Assembly: GCA_947446025.1 (NCBI GenBank)
Contig: CANFEY010000023.1
Location: 1-62,375 of the forward strand
DNA from: Bryobacterales bacterium
GTDB taxonomy: Bacteria > Acidobacteriota > Terriglobia > Bryobacterales > Bryobacteraceae
Direction: 5' to 3'
Length of the DNA stretch: 62,375 nt
The notes beneath the pieces were generated by a model. It searched no databases and was not told where the DNA came from. It was given only the letters and a program-made list of their open reading frames with translations. Below, one piece after another: positions 43,940-55,421 of the stretch; position 1 is the first letter of the stretch, and each line of letters starts with the position of its first letter. The translations under genes were made by a program, and so were the position numbers.

Positions 43940-44851
43940 ATGGAAACGCTGACTGAGCAACAGCCTGTTCGTGAGCAAGTAACCACCGCGGTAGACGCGC
44001 GTCCGTTGCCCTGGGCCGCCATCGGTTGGTTTGCCCTGCTCCTAATCGCCGCCTATTTCCCGATTCTGCGCAAATTAGTGGATCAGTGGATGACGGACGA
44101 CGACGTAAGTCATGGATTTTTTGTCCCCCTGGTAGCCGGCTAGATTGTCTGGCAGCGCCGTGACGTTTTGCTCAGTATGGAGTGGAAACCGGCTTGGTGG
44201 GGCCTCGGTCTACTGGCCTGGAGCGGCGTGCAGGCGTTCCTGGGAATGTTGGGGGCAGAGTTATTCCTGCAGCGCACGGCGTTTCTGGAGGCTTTGGTCG
44301 CGCTGCTGCTGATCATGGGCGGGACGGCCGCGATCCGGGCTTTGCTCTTCCCGCTGCTGCTGTTGCCCTTTATGATCCCGATTCCTACGGTGATCTACAA
44401 CCAAATCACCTTTCCCCTGCAACTGTTCGCCAGTCAGGTAGCCGAGCAGGTGCTACTCCTCATCAACATTCCAGTGCTGCGCGATGGGAACGTTCTAGAG
44501 CTGGCCAGTCAGAAGCTATCGGTGGCCGAGGCCTGTAGCGGCATTCGCAGCCTGCTGATGCTGACGTTCCTGTCCTTGGTCTACGCCTACTTTTTCGACA
44601 GCAAACTCTGGATGCGGTGGGCGTTGTTCCTGTGTACGATTCCGATCGCGATCATCGCTAACGCGCGCCGGGTGACGATCACCGGAATCTTGAGCGAGAT
44701 CGATACCGAGTTGGCCACAGGAATTTTCCATGAAACCGAAGGGTTCGTGATCTTCGGCATCGCTTTCGCCTTCCTGGCGCTCACCCATTGGGCGATCAAT
44801 TGGGTTTGGAATTTCCGCAGCCAGCCGAGCGCGCCGCTAGGTGAGGATTAG
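43940..44851 (+). pseudogene. Exosortase family protein with in-frame amber codon
   Basis: Reading from ATG 43940, the frame spans 304 codons, the normal exosortase length, but codon 68 is TAG (44141-44143). It falls in DDDVSHGFFVPLVAG-stop-IVWQRR, where homologues have an aromatic or hydrophobic residue, so a one-base change from a Tyr codon is the simplest explanation. Downstream the core is intact: C199 in AEACSGIRS, R243/R244 in NARRVT, H264 in HETEG. Exosortases cut and attach PEP-CTERM proteins. An internal ATG at 44168 opens the last 227 residues but has no ribosome site. Pseudogene, read-through or sequence error remain open. Confidence 0.78.
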
Positions 44852-44854
44852 CCC

Positions 44855-45502
44855 ATGTTTCGATTCTTCAATTCCCTTCCCGTCCGGGTTGCCAGCCTGG
44901 TGCTGATCTTACAGGGTGGGCTGCTGTATAGCTCTATCCGCGAAGAAGTGATTCCTTCCAGCCGGCCTCTCGCGGATGTGCCGCGCACCTTGGGCCAGTG
45001 GCAGTTCGTACAGGAAGGCGTCATCGACAAGGAATCCATGGCGGTGCTCCAGGCCGACGACACGTTGGTCCGGGAATATGCCAAGGACGGGGTGCAAGCC
45101 AATCTGTATGTAGCCGGGTTCCGCTCCCAGCGGACGGGCAAAGCGCCTCATTCCCCCAAGAATTGCCTGCCGGGGTCAGGATGGACGCCGCTGGATGACC
45201 GGGAAGTCACGTTGGACGTAGGACAAGGCCAAGTGATTCCAGCAAACCGTTACGTGATCACCCACGGCGATTACCGCAGTATGGTGTTCTACTGGTATCA
45301 ATCCCGCGACCGCGCCGTGGCCCGAGAGTTCAAGGCCAAATTCTGGGTCATGGCCGACGCACTGCGTTACAATCGCACCGACACCGCGCTGATCCGCGTG
45401 ATCGTGCCGATCATCAACAAAGATGAGGCCGCCGCCGAACGTCAGGCTACCGACTTCGTAAAGTCGATGTATTCCACCGTGCTCGACTATTTACCGTCGT
45501 AA
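44855..45502 (+). CDS. EpsI family protein (exosortase-associated, DUF3485)
   Basis: This 215-aa protein has an N-terminal membrane helix (VASLVLILQGGLLYS) and the EpsI motif AGFRSQRTGKAPHSPKNCLPGSGW, with the later VFYWYQSRDR. EpsI works with exosortase, often fused to it, in extracellular polysaccharide assembly and PEP-CTERM sorting. It follows the exosortase by 3 bases. Because its frame is intact, some pressure may still maintain the pathway. Confidence 0.85.
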   Translation: MFRFFNSLPVRVASLVLILQGGLLYSSIREEVIPSSRPLADVPRTLGQWQFVQEGVIDKESMAVLQADDTLVREYAKDGVQANLYVAGFRSQRTGKAPHSPKNCLPGSGWTPLDDREVTLDVGQGQVIPANRYVITHGDYRSMVFYWYQSRDRAVAREFKAKFWVMADALRYNRTDTALIRVIVPIINKDEAAAERQATDFVKSMYSTVLDYLPS

Positions 45503-49864: not shown

Positions 49865-50149
49865 ATGAGCGAAACGCAACTCACCTTTGTCCTGGCGTCG
49901 GCACCGACCATGCTGACGGTCCTGATCGGAATTCTGCTGAATAACTCCCGCCTGTCGGACGTGCGGACGGACGTGAACGGCCTAAAGGCGGACATGAATC
50001 TGCGGCTCGGGGAACTCCGATCCGACATGAACCGCCAGTTTGCCCAAGTCGACCGCCAGTTCAGCGACTCGCGCGACATTTGGCGTGCCGAGTTGCACCG
50101 TGTGGAAGAAATCCTCGACGCGCGGCTGAAACACCTGGCCGACCGCTAG
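49865..50149 (+). CDS. Small membrane-anchored coiled-coil protein, paralogue 2
   Basis: This 94-aa protein has the same layout as that at 37267-37518: membrane helix (QLTFVLASAPTMLTVLIGILL), then heptads. It has about 11 extra residues in the middle (NLRLGELRSDMN…VDRQF), an addition of one to two heptads, and the same end VEEILDARLKHL. Function unknown. It overlaps the convergent KASIII-like gene by 4 bases. Confidence 0.68.
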   Translation: MSETQLTFVLASAPTMLTVLIGILLNNSRLSDVRTDVNGLKADMNLRLGELRSDMNRQFAQVDRQFSDSRDIWRAELHRVEEILDARLKHLADR

Positions 50150-51048
50150 GAGCGCTCGGCCAACACCGCTCCCCAGTGGAATCCCGCGCCGAAGCCACAG
50201 AAGACTACGGGGCCTTGGACCGAATTCGTCTCCGACCATTCGGAGGCCGCAATTAGCATGGATGCCGACGACGTATTGCCGTAGCTCGCGATGTTGCTGA
50301 AGAATTTCTCGAGGTCAACGCCGAGCGTTTTCGCCACCCGCGTCAGAAGGTTTAGATTGGCCTGGTGGACCATAAAAGCTCCCACTTGCGAGGCCGCGAC
50401 CTGGTTGCGATCCAGCAGCTCCTGAATCACCCCGGGCATCTTGCGCGACGCGTGTAAGATGACGTTGAGGCCGTTCATGGTGAGCGTGCCATCGGACTTC
50501 AGGTCGTCGCGATACTGGCCGTCGCTGTGCAGCACGGCGTCGATCAAACGCCACGGGCCGGGGTCGCGCGAGATCAGGGCTGCTCCCGCACCATCGCCGA
50601 AGAGGATCGCTGTGTTGGGGTCGCCGCCGATAAGCGCGGACATTTTTTCGCTGGCAATCAGCAGCACGTTGCCGTGCGCCTCGGCCAGACGCATGGCTAG
50701 CGCGAGTCCGAAGACGCTGCCGGCGCTGGCGATGGGCAGGTCGAGCGCGGGCGTGTTTTCGAGGCCGAGCTTATGCGCCACTTCGGCGGCGGGTCCGGGA
50801 AAGCCGGTGGCTCCGCTGCCGCTGGCTAGGATCAGTAGTCCAACCTCGCGCGAATCGCGCAGGCAGTCCTCGGCTGCGAGCACGGCCATGTCGGCGATAC
50901 TCTCATCCGCCACCGCGTAGCGACGTTCGCGGATGCCGGAGGCGTTTTCGATCCACTCCGCGGTGCGGTCGAAGCGCGCGGCGAGTTCGGCGTTGGTCAC
51001 CACGCGCTCCGGCAGGTAGCGCCCGAAGCGGTGCAGATAGGCGCTCAT
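50146..51048 (-). CDS. FabH-like (KASIII) acyltransferase with Ser at the catalytic Cys position
   Basis: This 300-aa thiolase-fold protein matches beta-ketoacyl-ACP synthase III in the C-terminal half: FMVHQANLN with H228, SNIASYGNTSSAS with N258, GFGAGFHWGA. At the nucleophile position it has ALDLPIASAGSVF, giving S108 where FabH has Cys. Ser variants such as the DpsC type act as acyltransferases or priming enzymes, so normal fatty acid initiation is unlikely. It is translationally coupled (ATGA) to the acyl carrier protein. Confidence 0.82.
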   Translation of the reverse strand: MSAYLHRFGRYLPERVVTNAELAARFDRTAEWIENASGIRERRYAVADESIADMAVLAAEDCLRDSREVGLLILASGSGATGFPGPAAEVAHKLGLENTPALDLPIASAGSVFGLALAMRLAEAHGNVLLIASEKMSALIGGDPNTAILFGDGAGAALISRDPGPWRLIDAVLHSDGQYRDDLKSDGTLTMNGLNVILHASRKMPGVIQELLDRNQVAASQVGAFMVHQANLNLLTRVAKTLGVDLEKFFSNIASYGNTSSASMLIAASEWSETNSVQGPVVFCGFGAGFHWGAVLAERS

Positions 51049-51281
51049 TTCGAATCGAGATACGCCTCAATGCGCGCGATGGAATCAAACTTGCGCGGGT
51101 TCAGGTCGGCGTCGGGGACCTTGATAGCGAAGGCCTGTTCAATGGCGCTCACCAGATCGGGAAGCGCGAAGGAATCAAGCAGTCCGCTTTCAAACAACGA
51201 CTCATCCTCGTCAGCCGGGGCGGGCTTTCCGGCCACATCTTGGATCAACTTGCGGAGCTTATCGGTTCGGGACTCAGGCAC
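51045..51281 (-). CDS. Acyl carrier protein
   Basis: This 78-aa ACP has the phosphopantetheine Ser at about S37 in ESGLLDSFALPDLV, with the usual four-helix pattern. The GTG at 51281 fits the normal ACP length; a longer frame to 51353 would run into the divergent fliW start. Overlap with the KASIII-like gene (ATGA) marks a dedicated pair. It is not the housekeeping AcpP by sequence (LDS-F instead of DSL) and context. Confidence 0.78.
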   Translation of the reverse strand: MPESRTDKLRKLIQDVAGKPAPADEDESLFESGLLDSFALPDLVSAIEQAFAIKVPDADLNPRKFDSIARIEAYLDSK

Positions 51282-51329
51282 GATTCCAGTCTGACACGAG
51301 CGGCCCCCGGATTGCAGTATTTCGTGTAG

Positions 51330-51758
51330 ATGCCACGTGTACAGACAGAACAATTCGGCGAGTTGGAATATTCAGAGGATGCGGCGCTGCTCTTCCCTCG
51401 GGGCTTGCCAGGGTTTGAGGCGGCGCGGCGCTTTGTGCTGCTGGACGACGCGGAATTGGCTCCGCTGGTGCACTTGCAAAGCCTGGAAATAGGGGGCTTA
51501 TGCTTTCTGGCGCTGCCGGTGCGGAGCATTGAGCCGGAGTACGAAACCGCACTGACGGGTGAGGATCGGGAGGTGCTGGGGCGTGGTCCGACGCTGGACC
51601 TGGCGCTGCTTTCGGCGGATCACGAGGGCAGCCTCAGCGCCAATTTGTTGGCACCCGTCGTCATCGATTTGGCGACGCGGCGGGCCGTGCAGGCGGTGCG
51701 GGCGGACTCGCGGTACTCGTACCGGCATTCGTTGTCTGAGGTGCCTGTATGCTCGTGA
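51330..51758 (+). CDS. fliW: Flagellar assembly factor FliW
   Basis: This 142-aa protein has the FliW features FGELEYSEDAALLFPRGLPGFE near the N-terminus, then YRHSLSEVP near the end. FliW binds flagellin and antagonises CsrA, so flagellin translation follows export. It overlaps csrA by 10 bases and lies two genes upstream of the flagellin, the classic order. Confidence 0.9.
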   Translation: MPRVQTEQFGELEYSEDAALLFPRGLPGFEAARRFVLLDDAELAPLVHLQSLEIGGLCFLALPVRSIEPEYETALTGEDREVLGRGPTLDLALLSADHEGSLSANLLAPVVIDLATRRAVQAVRADSRYSYRHSLSEVPVCS

Positions 51759-52003
51759 TCCGGCGGCGGGTGGGCGAGACCTTGTTAATAGGCGACGAGG
51801 TTGAAGTGGAGGTGCTGGAGGCAGGCAGCACGCAAGTGAAGCTGGGAATTCGCGCGCCGCGGTCGGTGGGGGTGGTGCGGAAGGAGATCCGCGTGGTGGG
51901 GGAACAGAACCAAGCGGCCGCCCGGCCTATTTTGGTGCCGGAGCTCAAGGAAATCCTAAAACAATTCAAGAAGCCCGACGCTTCTCCGATAAGCCCCGTG
52001 TAA
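51749..52003 (+). CDS. csrA: Carbon storage regulator CsrA
   Basis: This 84-aa CsrA has MLVIRRRVGETLLIGDEVEVEVLE, QVKLGIRAP and VVRKEI, with the conserved GxxAP and Arg of the RNA-binding face. It binds GGA motifs in mRNA leaders and represses translation. The last 25 residues are a non-conserved tail. It overlaps fliW; flagellin follows 49 bases later. Confidence 0.92.
   Translation: MLVIRRRVGETLLIGDEVEVEVLEAGSTQVKLGIRAPRSVGVVRKEIRVVGEQNQAAARPILVPELKEILKQFKKPDASPISPV
51985..51992 (+). promoter_or_regulatory. Possible flagellar sigma factor -10 element before flagellin
   Basis: The sequence tccgataa at 51985-51992 matches the sigma-28 -10 consensus gCCGATAA, inside the 3' end of csrA. A start site 7-8 bases later would give a leader of about 50 bases containing both GGA sites. 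No good -35 match was found at the expected distance, so this is tentative. Confidence 0.35.
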
Positions 52004-52052: not shown

Positions 52053-55000
52053 GTGGCATTTGCAATCAATACCAACGTAGCCTCGCTGCAAGCACAGAAC
52101 AGCTTGCGCGTAACCGGCGACCTGCAATCGAAGACGATTAACCGTGTGACCTCGGGCTTGCGCATCGTGGCCTCGGGCGATGACGCGGCGGGCTTGGCGA
52201 TCGCCAACACCTACCGTTCGGACGGCGCGGTTCTTGCGCAAGGCGTTCGCAACGCCAATGACGGCCTCAGCCAACTGCAAACCGCGGACGGCGGCATCAA
52301 CAACATTTCGCAGCTTCTCGATCGTGCGCGCACCCTGGCGACGCAGTCTGCTTCCGGTGCGTTTACCGGTGACCGCAGCGTGCTGAACTCGGAGTTCGGC
52401 AGCGTGATCACGGAAATCGACCGGCAGGCGCAGGCCATTGGCTTGAATACGGGCGGGCAATTTGCGAAAGCCCTGAGCGTGTTCATCGGCGGCGGCCAGT
52501 CCTCGAACGGCGTCAGTGCGACGACGAACGGGTCGGTTTCGCTCGATCTGAGCCGTTCTTCGGTGGATTCCTCGAGCCTGGGCTTGAAGGGCGTGCAGGC
52601 GACGGGCGTGACGGGCACCGACATCGGGTCGGGTTCGGCGGCCACCAGCTTGTCGGCGATCCTGGGCAACACGGCGAACAGCGGGTCGGTCTCGACGCCG
52701 GGGTTCACCACGTTTGTCATCAAGGGACCGGGCTTTGACGGAAACGGCGTGAAGCTGTCGGTGAACACGGCGAATTTGGGCGGCACCTCGGATCTGGCGG
52801 CGGCGGTGAATGCCGCGATTTCGGCGGCGGGCAACGGCGGCACGCAGCAGGCCACGGCATTTAAGAATGCGAACGTGCTCGCGTCGATCACCACCGATTC
52901 CACCGGCAAGCAGCAGTTGGCGTTCAAGAGTTCCACTACGGCGTTCCAGGTGCAGGCTGGGGACCGTCAAGCGAACGCGTTGCTGGGCAACTTCGAGCGC
53001 AACGCGGCGGCGACGGGGACCGATACCGCAGCCTATGTAAACACGACCACGGACAACCTTCTGTGGTTCAAGTTCGACGGCGGCGCGCAGATCAACGTCA
53101 CGTTGACCACGCAGGCGGCAGGGACCTCAAAGGGCCAGATCGCGAAGGAATTGAACGCGAACGCGAACTTCGCTCTGGCGGCCACTGCGTCCATCGAAGG
53201 CAACCAGCTGATCATCAAGAGCAAGGGCAACTCGGCCACCTCTTCGGTCGAAGTGGTCACGACGAACCTAAATACCACGCTCGGTCTGTCCGGCACGGCC
53301 ACGGCGGCGGCGGCTTCGACGGGCGCGGCGCTGAAGGTTCAGGATCAGGGCGTCGGCAGCATCGACGCGCGGGCGAACATCATCGCCACCGATACGGCCG
53401 CGACCAAGACGATTGCCACCGGTGCCAACGCCATCAGTTTGACGGTTGGCTCCAGCGGCGCGCAGACTCTGTCGCTCAATTTGGGCACCACGTTGACCAA
53501 GGCGCAGATCGTGACCGATATCAACGCCAAGATCGCCGCCAACGGCAACTTCACCGGCAACAATACGGTGACCGCGAAGCTGGTGGACAACCAGGTGGTC
53601 TTCGAGGCCGGCAAACAAGGCCAGACGATTTCCGTAAACGCGGTGGCGAGCGACGCCTATACGGCGCTCGGCCTGACGGCGGGCACTTCTTCCACCACCC
53701 ATAAGGCCGTGGCTTCCGACTCGATCACCCTGCGCTTCCAAGGCAGCGGTCTGACCAGCCCGGTGGACATCACCTTGAACACTCTGGTGGCGGGCACCAC
53801 CACGACGGCGGACTTGCTGGCCGATTTGCAGACGAAGATCTCCAATTCCGGCGCATTGAACGGGGCGGGAATCTCGCTCTCCACCTCCGCAGTGGGCAAC
53901 AACCTGGTGTTCACCTCGAGCAAGGGCGAACAGTTCCAGGTGCTAGCCACAGGAGACAGCTCGAACTTGCTGGGTCTGGGCAGCCACCTCTCGGGTGCCA
54001 GCGGCGCGGTGGACTACACGACCATCACCGCCGGTACTGCTTATTCGACCAGTGGACACGCCGGCACAGTGAGCTTTCAAGCGTCGCTGAACGGCGAGTC
54101 TTCGAGCGTCAACGCCTTCTCGGCAAACCTGGCAGCGGGCGATGCCACGGCGGCGACGCGCACCAGCACGGTGGTCTACGCTGCCGGTGTGGTCGACTTG
54201 ACCGGCGGTGCCAACCTCACGCTCCGTGTCGATGGCGGTGCCTCGTTCAACGTGGCTTTGGGAACCAGCGCCACCACTCCCATCGCGACCATTCTCACCG
54301 CGATCAACGCTGCTTCAACCACCGCTGGCCATGGCAACATTGCTTCGTTGAACGGGTCTGGCAACTTGGTGCTCACCTCGAATACCAAAGGCTCGAGCAG
54401 CAGCCTTGAAGTGGTCAACGTCGCGGGCGGTTCCGACGCCGAAACCCTGACGGCCCTCGGTTTGGGTGCCGGCGGTTTGGTCTCCAACGGTGCCAACGCT
54501 TCGGCGGCCAACGTCGTGCAGCAGTTGAATGACTCGATTGCTGGTGACGCCGAACTGGTGAAGGCGGGCCTCACAGCCTCGCTCGATACCGGCAAGGTGG
54601 TGATCTCCTCCAGCAACGGAACCTACTTCCGCCTCAACGCCTTCGGATCGGGCGACGCCGGGTTCACCCGCAACGGTGCCACCTTCACGGGCAACACCCA
54701 GGGCGCGGCCCCGACCACTTCGCCTTACTTCAACTCGCAGGGCGCGGATGCCTCCTCGGCGCTGGCCTACACCGACCGGTTGTACGGCAGCGACGATCAG
54801 ACCATCTCCATCTCGGCCAACGACGCCAGCGGCGTGAAGCACTCGCTCTCGGTGAACCTGCAGAACGATACCACCGCGCGCAGCCAGTCCATCGATCAGG
54901 CGCTCAGCAGCATCAACAGCGCTCTGCAGCAGTCGAACGATTCCACCCTGAACCGCGTCGTCGCGGTGAAGGAAGAATCGGGGGGCGTGCAGTCGATCCG

Positions 55001-55421
55001 CTTCCTGAGCACCGTCCGGGGCTTCCAGGTCACGGTCGGTTCCTCGCCGAACTCCACCGGCGTCACGCCGCCGTCCGGTAACCAGAGCACCGCTACCACG
55101 GTGGGCGAGGGTGCCAACGCCGACATCGGCGACCAGGCGAGCGCGCAGTCCGCTGTCGCGGCTCTCGCTACCGCGGTGAACCTGCTCGGTAAAGCCCAAG
55201 CCGTCGTCGGCCGGGGTCAGAACCAGTTCGCGTTCGCCATCAACCTGGCCCAGTCCCAGCTCACCAACCTGGCTGCCGCCGAATCCCGTATCCGCGACGC
55301 GGATCTGGCCGCTGAATCCGCCAACTTAACCAAGTCGCAGATTCTGCTCCATGCCGGTATCGCGGCACTGGCGCAAGCCAACTCCGCTCCGCAGCAGGTG
55401 CTGTCGCTGCTGAGAGGCTAG
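52053..55421 (+). CDS. fliC: Giant flagellin
   Basis: This 1122-aa flagellin is about twice to three times the usual length. The N-terminal D0/D1 (residues 1 to about 150: FAINTNVASLQAQNSL, RVTSGLRI…DDAAGLAIAN) and C-terminal D1/D0 (about 1025-1122: RIRDADLAAESANLTKSQIL, ending QVLSLLRG) are canonical. Between them lies about 870 residues rich in Ala, Gly, Ser and Thr and without Cys. It holds about six related modules, starting near 52704, 53056, 53427, 53718, 54214 and 54798. These resemble the Flagellin-IN fold seen in FliD. The start is GTG. Confidence 0.92.
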   Translation: MAFAINTNVASLQAQNSLRVTGDLQSKTINRVTSGLRIVASGDDAAGLAIANTYRSDGAVLAQGVRNANDGLSQLQTADGGINNISQLLDRARTLATQSASGAFTGDRSVLNSEFGSVITEIDRQAQAIGLNTGGQFAKALSVFIGGGQSSNGVSATTNGSVSLDLSRSSVDSSSLGLKGVQATGVTGTDIGSGSAATSLSAILGNTANSGSVSTPGFTTFVIKGPGFDGNGVKLSVNTANLGGTSDLAAAVNAAISAAGNGGTQQATAFKNANVLASITTDSTGKQQLAFKSSTTAFQVQAGDRQANALLGNFERNAAATGTDTAAYVNTTTDNLLWFKFDGGAQINVTLTTQAAGTSKGQIAKELNANANFALAATASIEGNQLIIKSKGNSATSSVEVVTTNLNTTLGLSGTATAAAASTGAALKVQDQGVGSIDARANIIATDTAATKTIATGANAISLTVGSSGAQTLSLNLGTTLTKAQIVTDINAKIAANGNFTGNNTVTAKLVDNQVVFEAGKQGQTISVNAVASDAYTALGLTAGTSSTTHKAVASDSITLRFQGSGLTSPVDITLNTLVAGTTTTADLLADLQTKISNSGALNGAGISLSTSAVGNNLVFTSSKGEQFQVLATGDSSNLLGLGSHLSGASGAVDYTTITAGTAYSTSGHAGTVSFQASLNGESSSVNAFSANLAAGDATAATRTSTVVYAAGVVDLTGGANLTLRVDGGASFNVALGTSATTPIATILTAINAASTTAGHGNIASLNGSGNLVLTSNTKGSSSSLEVVNVAGGSDAETLTALGLGAGGLVSNGANASAANVVQQLNDSIAGDAELVKAGLTASLDTGKVVISSSNGTYFRLNAFGSGDAGFTRNGATFTGNTQGAAPTTSPYFNSQGADASSALAYTDRLYGSDDQTISISANDASGVKHSLSVNLQNDTTARSQSIDQALSSINSALQQSNDSTLNRVVAVKEESGGVQSIRFLSTVRGFQVTVGSSPNSTGVTPPSGNQSTATTVGEGANADIGDQASAQSAVAALATAVNLLGKAQAVVGRGQNQFAFAINLAQSQLTNLAAAESRIRDADLAAESANLTKSQILLHAGIAALAQANSAPQQVLSLLRG

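Follow-up and report, generated by a model that had tools for sequence, protein, structure and literature searches.

A KASIII-like protein that carries serine where FabH has its catalytic cysteine, and the acyl carrier protein (ACP) encoded beside it, probably form (we would put this at about 0.6) the cytoplasmic, or charging, half of a pathway for acylating the envelope, with the KASIII-like protein charging the carrier and an MBOAT membrane protein and SGNH proteins exporting the acyl group. The pair lies in a stretch of 62,375 nucleotides from a Bryobacterales bacterium, here called the window, whose genome (G000) has 4.43 Mb in 120 contigs and is 99.88% complete. A single operon holds these genes in the majority of genera examined; in the genus to which the window belongs, charging and membrane halves would have been split, and in a few species the charging half would have landed beside fliW-csrA-flagellin.

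We infer the individual transfer steps, the direction of flow and the identity of both acyl group and polymer. The Ser-type KASIII would take an acyl group on Ser108 and pass it to the phosphopantetheine arm of its dedicated ACP; the acyl-ACP would hand it to the MBOAT membrane protein, which would move it to the tyrosine of its own C-terminal FxYxxF, outside the cytoplasm; from there two SGNH proteins would attach it to a surface polymer. The acyl group could come from malonyl-ACP or another acyl-ACP instead of from acyl-CoA.

The gene pair and its serine

The features of the pair and its neighbours are collected in Table 1. An earlier note, made from the window alone, had located the arrangement in 51045-51758; that interval does contain the ACP and fliW genes, but the KASIII gene sits just to its left. 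Its description of a translationally coupled pair, with 48 bases separating it from a divergent fliW-csrA-flagellin set, agrees with the coordinates, the ACP stop and the KASIII start overlapping by 4 bases (ATGA).

Table 1. Positions of the gene pair, its expected catalytic residues and the adjoining flagellar genes in the window
Feature	Position	Strand	Basis or detail
KASIII-fold protein	50146-51048	-	300 aa; translation; Pfam ACP_syn_III 50.3 bits, ACP_syn_III_C 80.8 bits
Asn258 codon	50275-50277	-	Place of FabH Asn274 (alignment)
His228 codon	50365-50367	-	Place of FabH His244 (alignment)
Ser108 codon AGC	50725-50727	-	Place of E. coli FabH Cys112 (alignment)
Stand-alone ACP	51045-51281	-	GTG start; 78 aa; Pfam PP-binding 40.4 bits
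ACP Ser37 in LDSF motif, expected phosphopantetheine site	51171-51173	-	Translation; D-S-F invariant in 48/48 aligned ACPs
Divergent spacer, ACP start to fliW start	51282-51329	.	48 bases
FliW	51330-51758		Pfam
CsrA	51749-52003		Pfam
Flagellin	52053-55421		Pfam

Judged by its Pfam matches, by an AlphaFold2 model (mean pLDDT 93.9) and by the TM-score of that model against E. coli FabH 1hn9 in Foldseek (0.95 by query length, and about 0.95 on FabH structures), the protein is, as modelled, of thiolase-type KASIII fold. Of the 151 relative genomes searched, 49 have a close orthologue, the window's own genome included, after which scores drop to FabH-like values. Fifty rows were aligned: 49 show an ASAG motif with the serine, and one, L111 from genome G041, has cysteine; at 39% identity it was kept out of the orthologue counts. 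Serine is therefore present in 49/49 orthologue rows, the window's among them, against cysteine in 28/28 FabH rows, and since it is kept in all of the orthologue rows its occurrence by chance is excluded. The earlier note had foreseen that homologues might have cysteine in this column with a locally shifted alignment; the orthologues all have serine, and neither the model nor the TM-score shows a shift.

Its statement that His228 and Asn258 are intact around a serine at the place of the FabH cysteine stands likewise. The residue alignment with E. coli FabH has 47 Ser-clade rows, the counted orthologues L109 (cut by a contig end) and L074 (with an N stretch) being left aside, and in it the catalytic column is serine in 47/47 rows against cysteine in 28/28 FabH rows, with histidine at the His244 place and asparagine at the Asn274 place in every row of both sets. 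In the tree a branch supported at 100/96 separates the Ser clade from the rest. The window protein scores below the curated FabH-type cut-offs of NCBIfam (fabH, 208.9 against 292.1 bits; PRK09352, 234.9 against 249 bits).

FabH Lys214 and Arg249 bind ACP, and in the Ser clade the first is replaced by leucine or methionine (42/47 rows) and the second by asparagine (45/47), with isoleucine at the Phe213 place in 47/47. Phenylalanine at the place of Phe87, an acyl-pocket residue of E. coli FabH, is kept in 46/47 rows and suggests a short acyl pocket. Arg36 is lost in 47/47 rows and Arg151 in 29/47; tryptophan at the Trp32 place, which the 47 rows of the main alignment have, is missing in 3 of 10 orthologues from a later survey. 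According to the available portions of PMC4606726 and PMC10054515, Arg36 of FabH is at the pantetheine arm and Trp32 and Arg151 are at the CoA adenine, so that with Arg36 gone an acyl-CoA donor becomes doubtful.

These residues bear on an unlikely though quite conceivable variant of the pathway, in which the Ser-KASIII makes acyl-ACP not by transfer from CoA but by decarboxylation of malonyl-ACP or by condensation (giving, for instance, 3-oxoacyl or 3-hydroxyacyl groups). The loss of Arg36 fits it, as does the invariance (47/47) of His228 and Asn258, whose FabH counterparts are said, in what is accessible of PMC10054515, to stabilise the enolate; a sister lineage in genome G208 keeps cysteine in the same operon, and DpsC, which bears serine, is described in the review text available as also condensing. 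Against it, the replacements at Arg249 and Lys214 make FabH-like docking of malonyl-ACP doubtful, and the five-gene order has no recurrent reductase. In the open-licence literature no paper on decarboxylation by C112S was found. With DpsC presented in the available parts of two reviews as both ketosynthase and acyltransferase, the earlier contention that Ser variants are acyltransferases and not condensing enzymes goes too far. Nor can serine simply stand in for cysteine, since Cys-to-Ser mutation inactivates the acyltransferase CerJ (PMC9573744, in the portion available).

The operon and its distribution

Charging of the carrier by the KASIII-like protein, the reading preferred here, takes its footing from what the genomes contain, namely the operon, the co-occurrence of its genes and the conserved catalytic residues. 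ORF clustering and the reading of loci, with confirmation by Pfam, showed that the ACP gene is preceded by an MBOAT gene and two genes of SGNH type (Lipase_GDSL_2). Layout was scored by script in 60 loci (48 from relatives and 12 from the later survey; 58 of Ser type). The order MBOAT-SGNH1-SGNH2-ACP-KASIII on one strand was found in 23/60, a figure that became 25 once L081 and L086 had been corrected by reading, so that 25 of the 58 Ser-type loci have the five-gene operon. MBOAT or SGNH genes are near the pair in 39/58; the 19 loci lacking them are 18 from the window's own genus and L079. With a carrier and a KASIII-fold protein in one operon, the simplest account would have the carrier loaded by the KASIII and then supplying the MBOAT. 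A small cluster of shared neighbours near the KASIII gene was discarded, being overlapping wrong-frame ORFs of that gene.

An ACP orthologue is present in 49/49 genomes with the Ser-KASIII and in 1/102 without it. In 47 of the 48 loci from relatives it immediately precedes the KASIII gene, the exception being G079, whose ACP orthologue is on another contig. An MBOAT orthologue (at least 290 bits, a limit chosen, like the other bit-score limits, after the gaps were visible) is present in 47/49 genomes with the pair against 7/102 without it, and the Fisher test on this co-occurrence treats related genomes as independent. In G130 and G143 a more distant MBOAT, below the 290-bit limit, is right beside the pair. 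Taking one genome for each of the other genera of the family, with the window's own genus excluded, the MBOAT is in 27/27 genera with the pair and in 3/41 without. The MBOAT proteins have a C-terminal FxYxxF in 53/53 loci with a complete end, six of them from genomes without the pair, and the SGNH proteins retain Ser, Asn and Asp..His.

In the window's own genus both halves are present and unlinked, the membrane half of G000 being at 743-4942 of contig 45. Altogether pair and MBOAT operon are unlinked in 24/49 genomes, the window's own included, although most genomes are drafts and 'unlinked' may mean another contig at an unspecified distance. The MBOAT is found in all 23 genomes of the genus and the pair in 19; G001 (65% complete), G006 (98%), G017 (79%) and G019 (89%), which lack the pair, make up with G033, G080 and G041 the seven that have the MBOAT alone. 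In G033 and G080 the MBOAT genes run up to a contig end. In G006, at least, the membrane half seems to operate in the absence of the pair. The four own-genus genomes that lack the pair, the 24 unlinked cases, the partial loss of CoA-site residues, the inactive Cys-to-Ser form of CerJ and the cysteine in the G208 operon are the points that count against the pathway as proposed.

Several loci deserve notice for their own sake. In G041 (L159:4127-8123) an ACP gene is retained after SGNH2, the Ser-KASIII is missing, a transposase-like ORF is nearby and a Cys-type KASIII relative is on another contig. Weak ACP matches are found a few kb from more distant MBOATs (G134:C2, G127:C200, G042:C49, G090:C57 and G090:C146), and carrier-linked MBOATs may be more widespread. 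At L127:4939-6054 a gene for an SH3_3-domain protein, perhaps a wall-binding helper, directly follows SGNH2, an arrangement confined to the window's own genus among the loci searched. Such a gene was tried as a pointer to peptidoglycan and rejected: it matched in 15/91 loci, all of them own-genus MBOAT loci, and so cannot name the polymer.

The Ser-clade profile was also run against 396 genomes of the phylum, with up to five candidates scored per genome, which is less than a full census. Thirteen genomes, three of the window's own genus, scored at least 372 bits, and the next match was at 270 bits. All 10 of the new orthologues have serine, and in all 10 MBOAT or SGNH genes are adjacent; the full five-gene order is present in 6/10, all in family f11. 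For the others, an MBOAT is beside the pair in L187, L188 and L189, the last two with SGNH genes too, and an SGNH gene adjoins the pair on the 4.9-kb contig of L186. Below the gap, G208 (270 bits; L190:4246-9964) has the order SGNH2-MBOAT-SGNH1-ACP-KASIII with a Cys-type KASIII, so the partnership with MBOAT and SGNH proteins is wider than the Ser clade, and serine may be a later change within it. That operon is a natural comparison for the effect of the serine. G434 (258 bits) has cysteine, and no neighbours of MBOAT, SGNH or ACP type occur within the stretch fetched.

One database entry needs a word: CALQCC020000004.1 (L005), titled as a Bordetella parapertussis metagenome-assembled genome, agrees in length (177736 bases) and in gene set with contig 4 of the own-genus genome G014, and the title is very probably wrong.

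Flagellin and other possible destinations

FabH and ACP genes occur in some flagellin glycan islands, and the earlier note had raised the possibility that an acyl group loaded on the ACP serves to modify flagellin or a surface glycan; the acyl group would then go onto flagellin itself or onto a nucleotide sugar destined for it. The head-to-head arrangement invites it, though among 48 relative loci only L063 and L064 have the window's fliW-csrA-flagellin arrangement next to the pair. Neighbourhoods were read for up to about 10 kb on each side, many being ended by contig ends, and in these, flagellar genes are near the pair in 9/49 loci (the window, L063, L064, L068, L069, L070, L076, L079 and L088), that is, in 8 of the 19 pair-bearing genomes of the window's genus and in L079; genes for GDP- or dTDP-sugar enzymes are near several of the own-genus loci. 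The other 40 loci have no flagellar genes nearby, and in relatives the pair is thus mostly away from flagellin, the very situation in which the note had said that its idea would fail. Four of the 49 pair-bearing genomes have no Flagellin_N match (G010 and G130, both 100% complete; G021, 89%; G143, 82%), and across the family flagellin is about equally common with the pair (44/46 genomes) and without it (40/45). In G010 the pair adjoins pheS-pheT, and in the sister loci L068-L070 fliW, csrA and fliD come between. The conservation of the pair is explained by its MBOAT and SGNH partners. Flagellin as the general target was consequently rejected, and acylation of flagellin or of its glycan is now improbable, although a side role for flagellin may exist in the window's own genus. 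The broader part of the earlier suggestion, an ACP-loaded acyl group destined for a surface polymer, is the best reading now, by virtue of the MBOAT/SGNH operon and the co-occurrence.

The flagellin of the window is itself very long (1122 aa with a large central insert), and those of relatives near the pair have 900-1200 aa. A few kb from the pair, at 44168-45502, exosortase-like and EpsI-like ORFs are upstream of purine genes. Here and above, the names purQ/L/F, pheS/T, sugar-nucleotide genes, transposase and exosortase were given by eye, without Pfam or NCBIfam.

A quite improbable role, also rejected, would have the pair replace FabH and AcpP as the starter of fatty-acid synthesis in genomes without a canonical FabH. 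No canonical FabH (PF08545 above 80 bits) was found in 7 of 16 genomes searched (G000, G007, G014, G004, G008, G089 and G001), and in G000 PF08545 matched nothing beyond the Ser type and a weak hit interrupted by an inner stop. The other nine do have one, however: five are without the Ser type (G006, G017, G019, G033 and G080), G041 has the Cys type besides, and in G010, G085 and G130, the cases on which the rejection turned, canonical FabH and Ser type stand alongside one another. G000, moreover, has a second ACP, of housekeeping type, encoded next to a KASII-like gene (both named by eye), and the condensing cysteine is replaced by serine. Least probable of all is that the Ser-KASIII works as a late, soluble acyltransferase, moving the acyl group from the ACP onto some small molecule in the cytoplasm, for which CerJ, a KASIII-like enzyme that acts on a sugar (PMC9573744, in the part available), gives precedent, with the MBOAT operon co-inherited for other reasons: the tight co-occurrence and shared operon with MBOAT and SGNH genes speak against it, and no alternative ACP-charging enzyme recurs in the operon.

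Kinship with known systems

The resemblance to Dlt (DltA-DltB-DltC-DltD-DltX, for D-alanylation of teichoic acid) is in the stand-alone carrier adjoining MBOAT and SGNH genes, and the NCBIfam names closest to MBOAT and ACP are DltB and DltC, but all scores are below the cut-offs: DltB, the sole NCBIfam match of the G000 MBOAT, has 160.2 bits against 375, and DltC (cut-off 68 bits) has 32.4 bits for the window ACP and 47.5 bits for that of the L081 operon, its best match. Unlike Dlt, the five-gene order has a KASIII-fold protein in place of an adenylating DltA-like gene, none of which was found in it (L182 has an AMP-ligase-like gene, so named by eye, downstream), and the hexapeptide expected to carry acyl-Tyr is at the C-terminus of the MBOAT, whereas in Dlt it is on the DltX peptide.

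It is in this tail and in the SGNH partners that the likeness to PatA/PatB, to AlgI/J/X of alginate and to WssH/I of cellulose is seen (PMC12148441, as far as its accessible text goes). There, PatA auto-acetylates the tyrosine of its FxYxxF motif and then gives the acetyl to PatB, and carrier proteins are said to be missing from MBOAT/SGNH pathways apart from Dlt, because these draw on acyl-CoA; the present operon, in contrast, has an ACP and a KASIII-like gene. The marks of an MBOAT-SGNH system (FxYxxF, and Ser with Asp..His in SGNH) are found here, in the window's own genome on another contig. As tested, the system would work like a hybrid of Dlt and PatAB, and is a member of neither.

For the charging step, the KASIII-like ChlB3 is described in the available part of PMC9573744 as loading a discrete ACP, and the same fold would, as with ChlB3/ChlB2, charge a stand-alone ACP here; ChlB3 differs in its Cys113-His296-Asp301 and in its antibiotic pathway, against Ser-His-Asn at the FabH places and an envelope operon. 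DpsC, a Ser-type priming ketosynthase, shares serine at the nucleophile place, acylating itself on it and transferring the group to ACP (PMC12664062, in the text available). Its partners are given there as His297 and Asp302, and in the accessible text of PMC9573744 as two histidines, in place of the FabH-like His228 and Asn258 found here. By our reckoning His297 and Asp302 would align with the FabH Asn274 place and the residue five further on, where the window protein has Asn258 and Ser263, with asparagine in 47/47 rows; membership of the DpsC type was rejected on the asparagine place, and in the neighbourhoods examined no type II polyketide gene cluster was found. With FabH itself the fold, the His, the Asn and, in 46/47 rows, the Phe at the Phe87 place are held in common, and the differences are the serine, the replaced Arg36, Lys214, Arg249 and Phe213, and scores under both FabH-type cut-offs.

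In such open-licence literature as was available, in part, no described set of KASIII, ACP and MBOAT was found, which is not proof of absence. It is an even wager that we have here a third design of transmembrane acylation, in which a condensing-enzyme fold, converted to a Ser acyltransferase, takes the place of Dlt's ATP-using ligase, charges a dedicated carrier and feeds an MBOAT with its own acyl-Tyr tail. The combination in one operon of a PatA-like MBOAT with its own tyrosine tail, a Dlt-like carrier and a putative charger of KASIII fold breaks the no-carrier rule, and suggests a likely function for one Ser-for-Cys clade of KASIII proteins, a clade that scores below curated FabH cut-offs. 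The split of the operon in the window's genus illustrates how an accidental neighbour, in this case flagellin, can mislead the calling of function. If the proposal is true, the carrier would allow export of acyl groups built or chosen on ACP, beyond the reach of systems fed by acyl-CoA.
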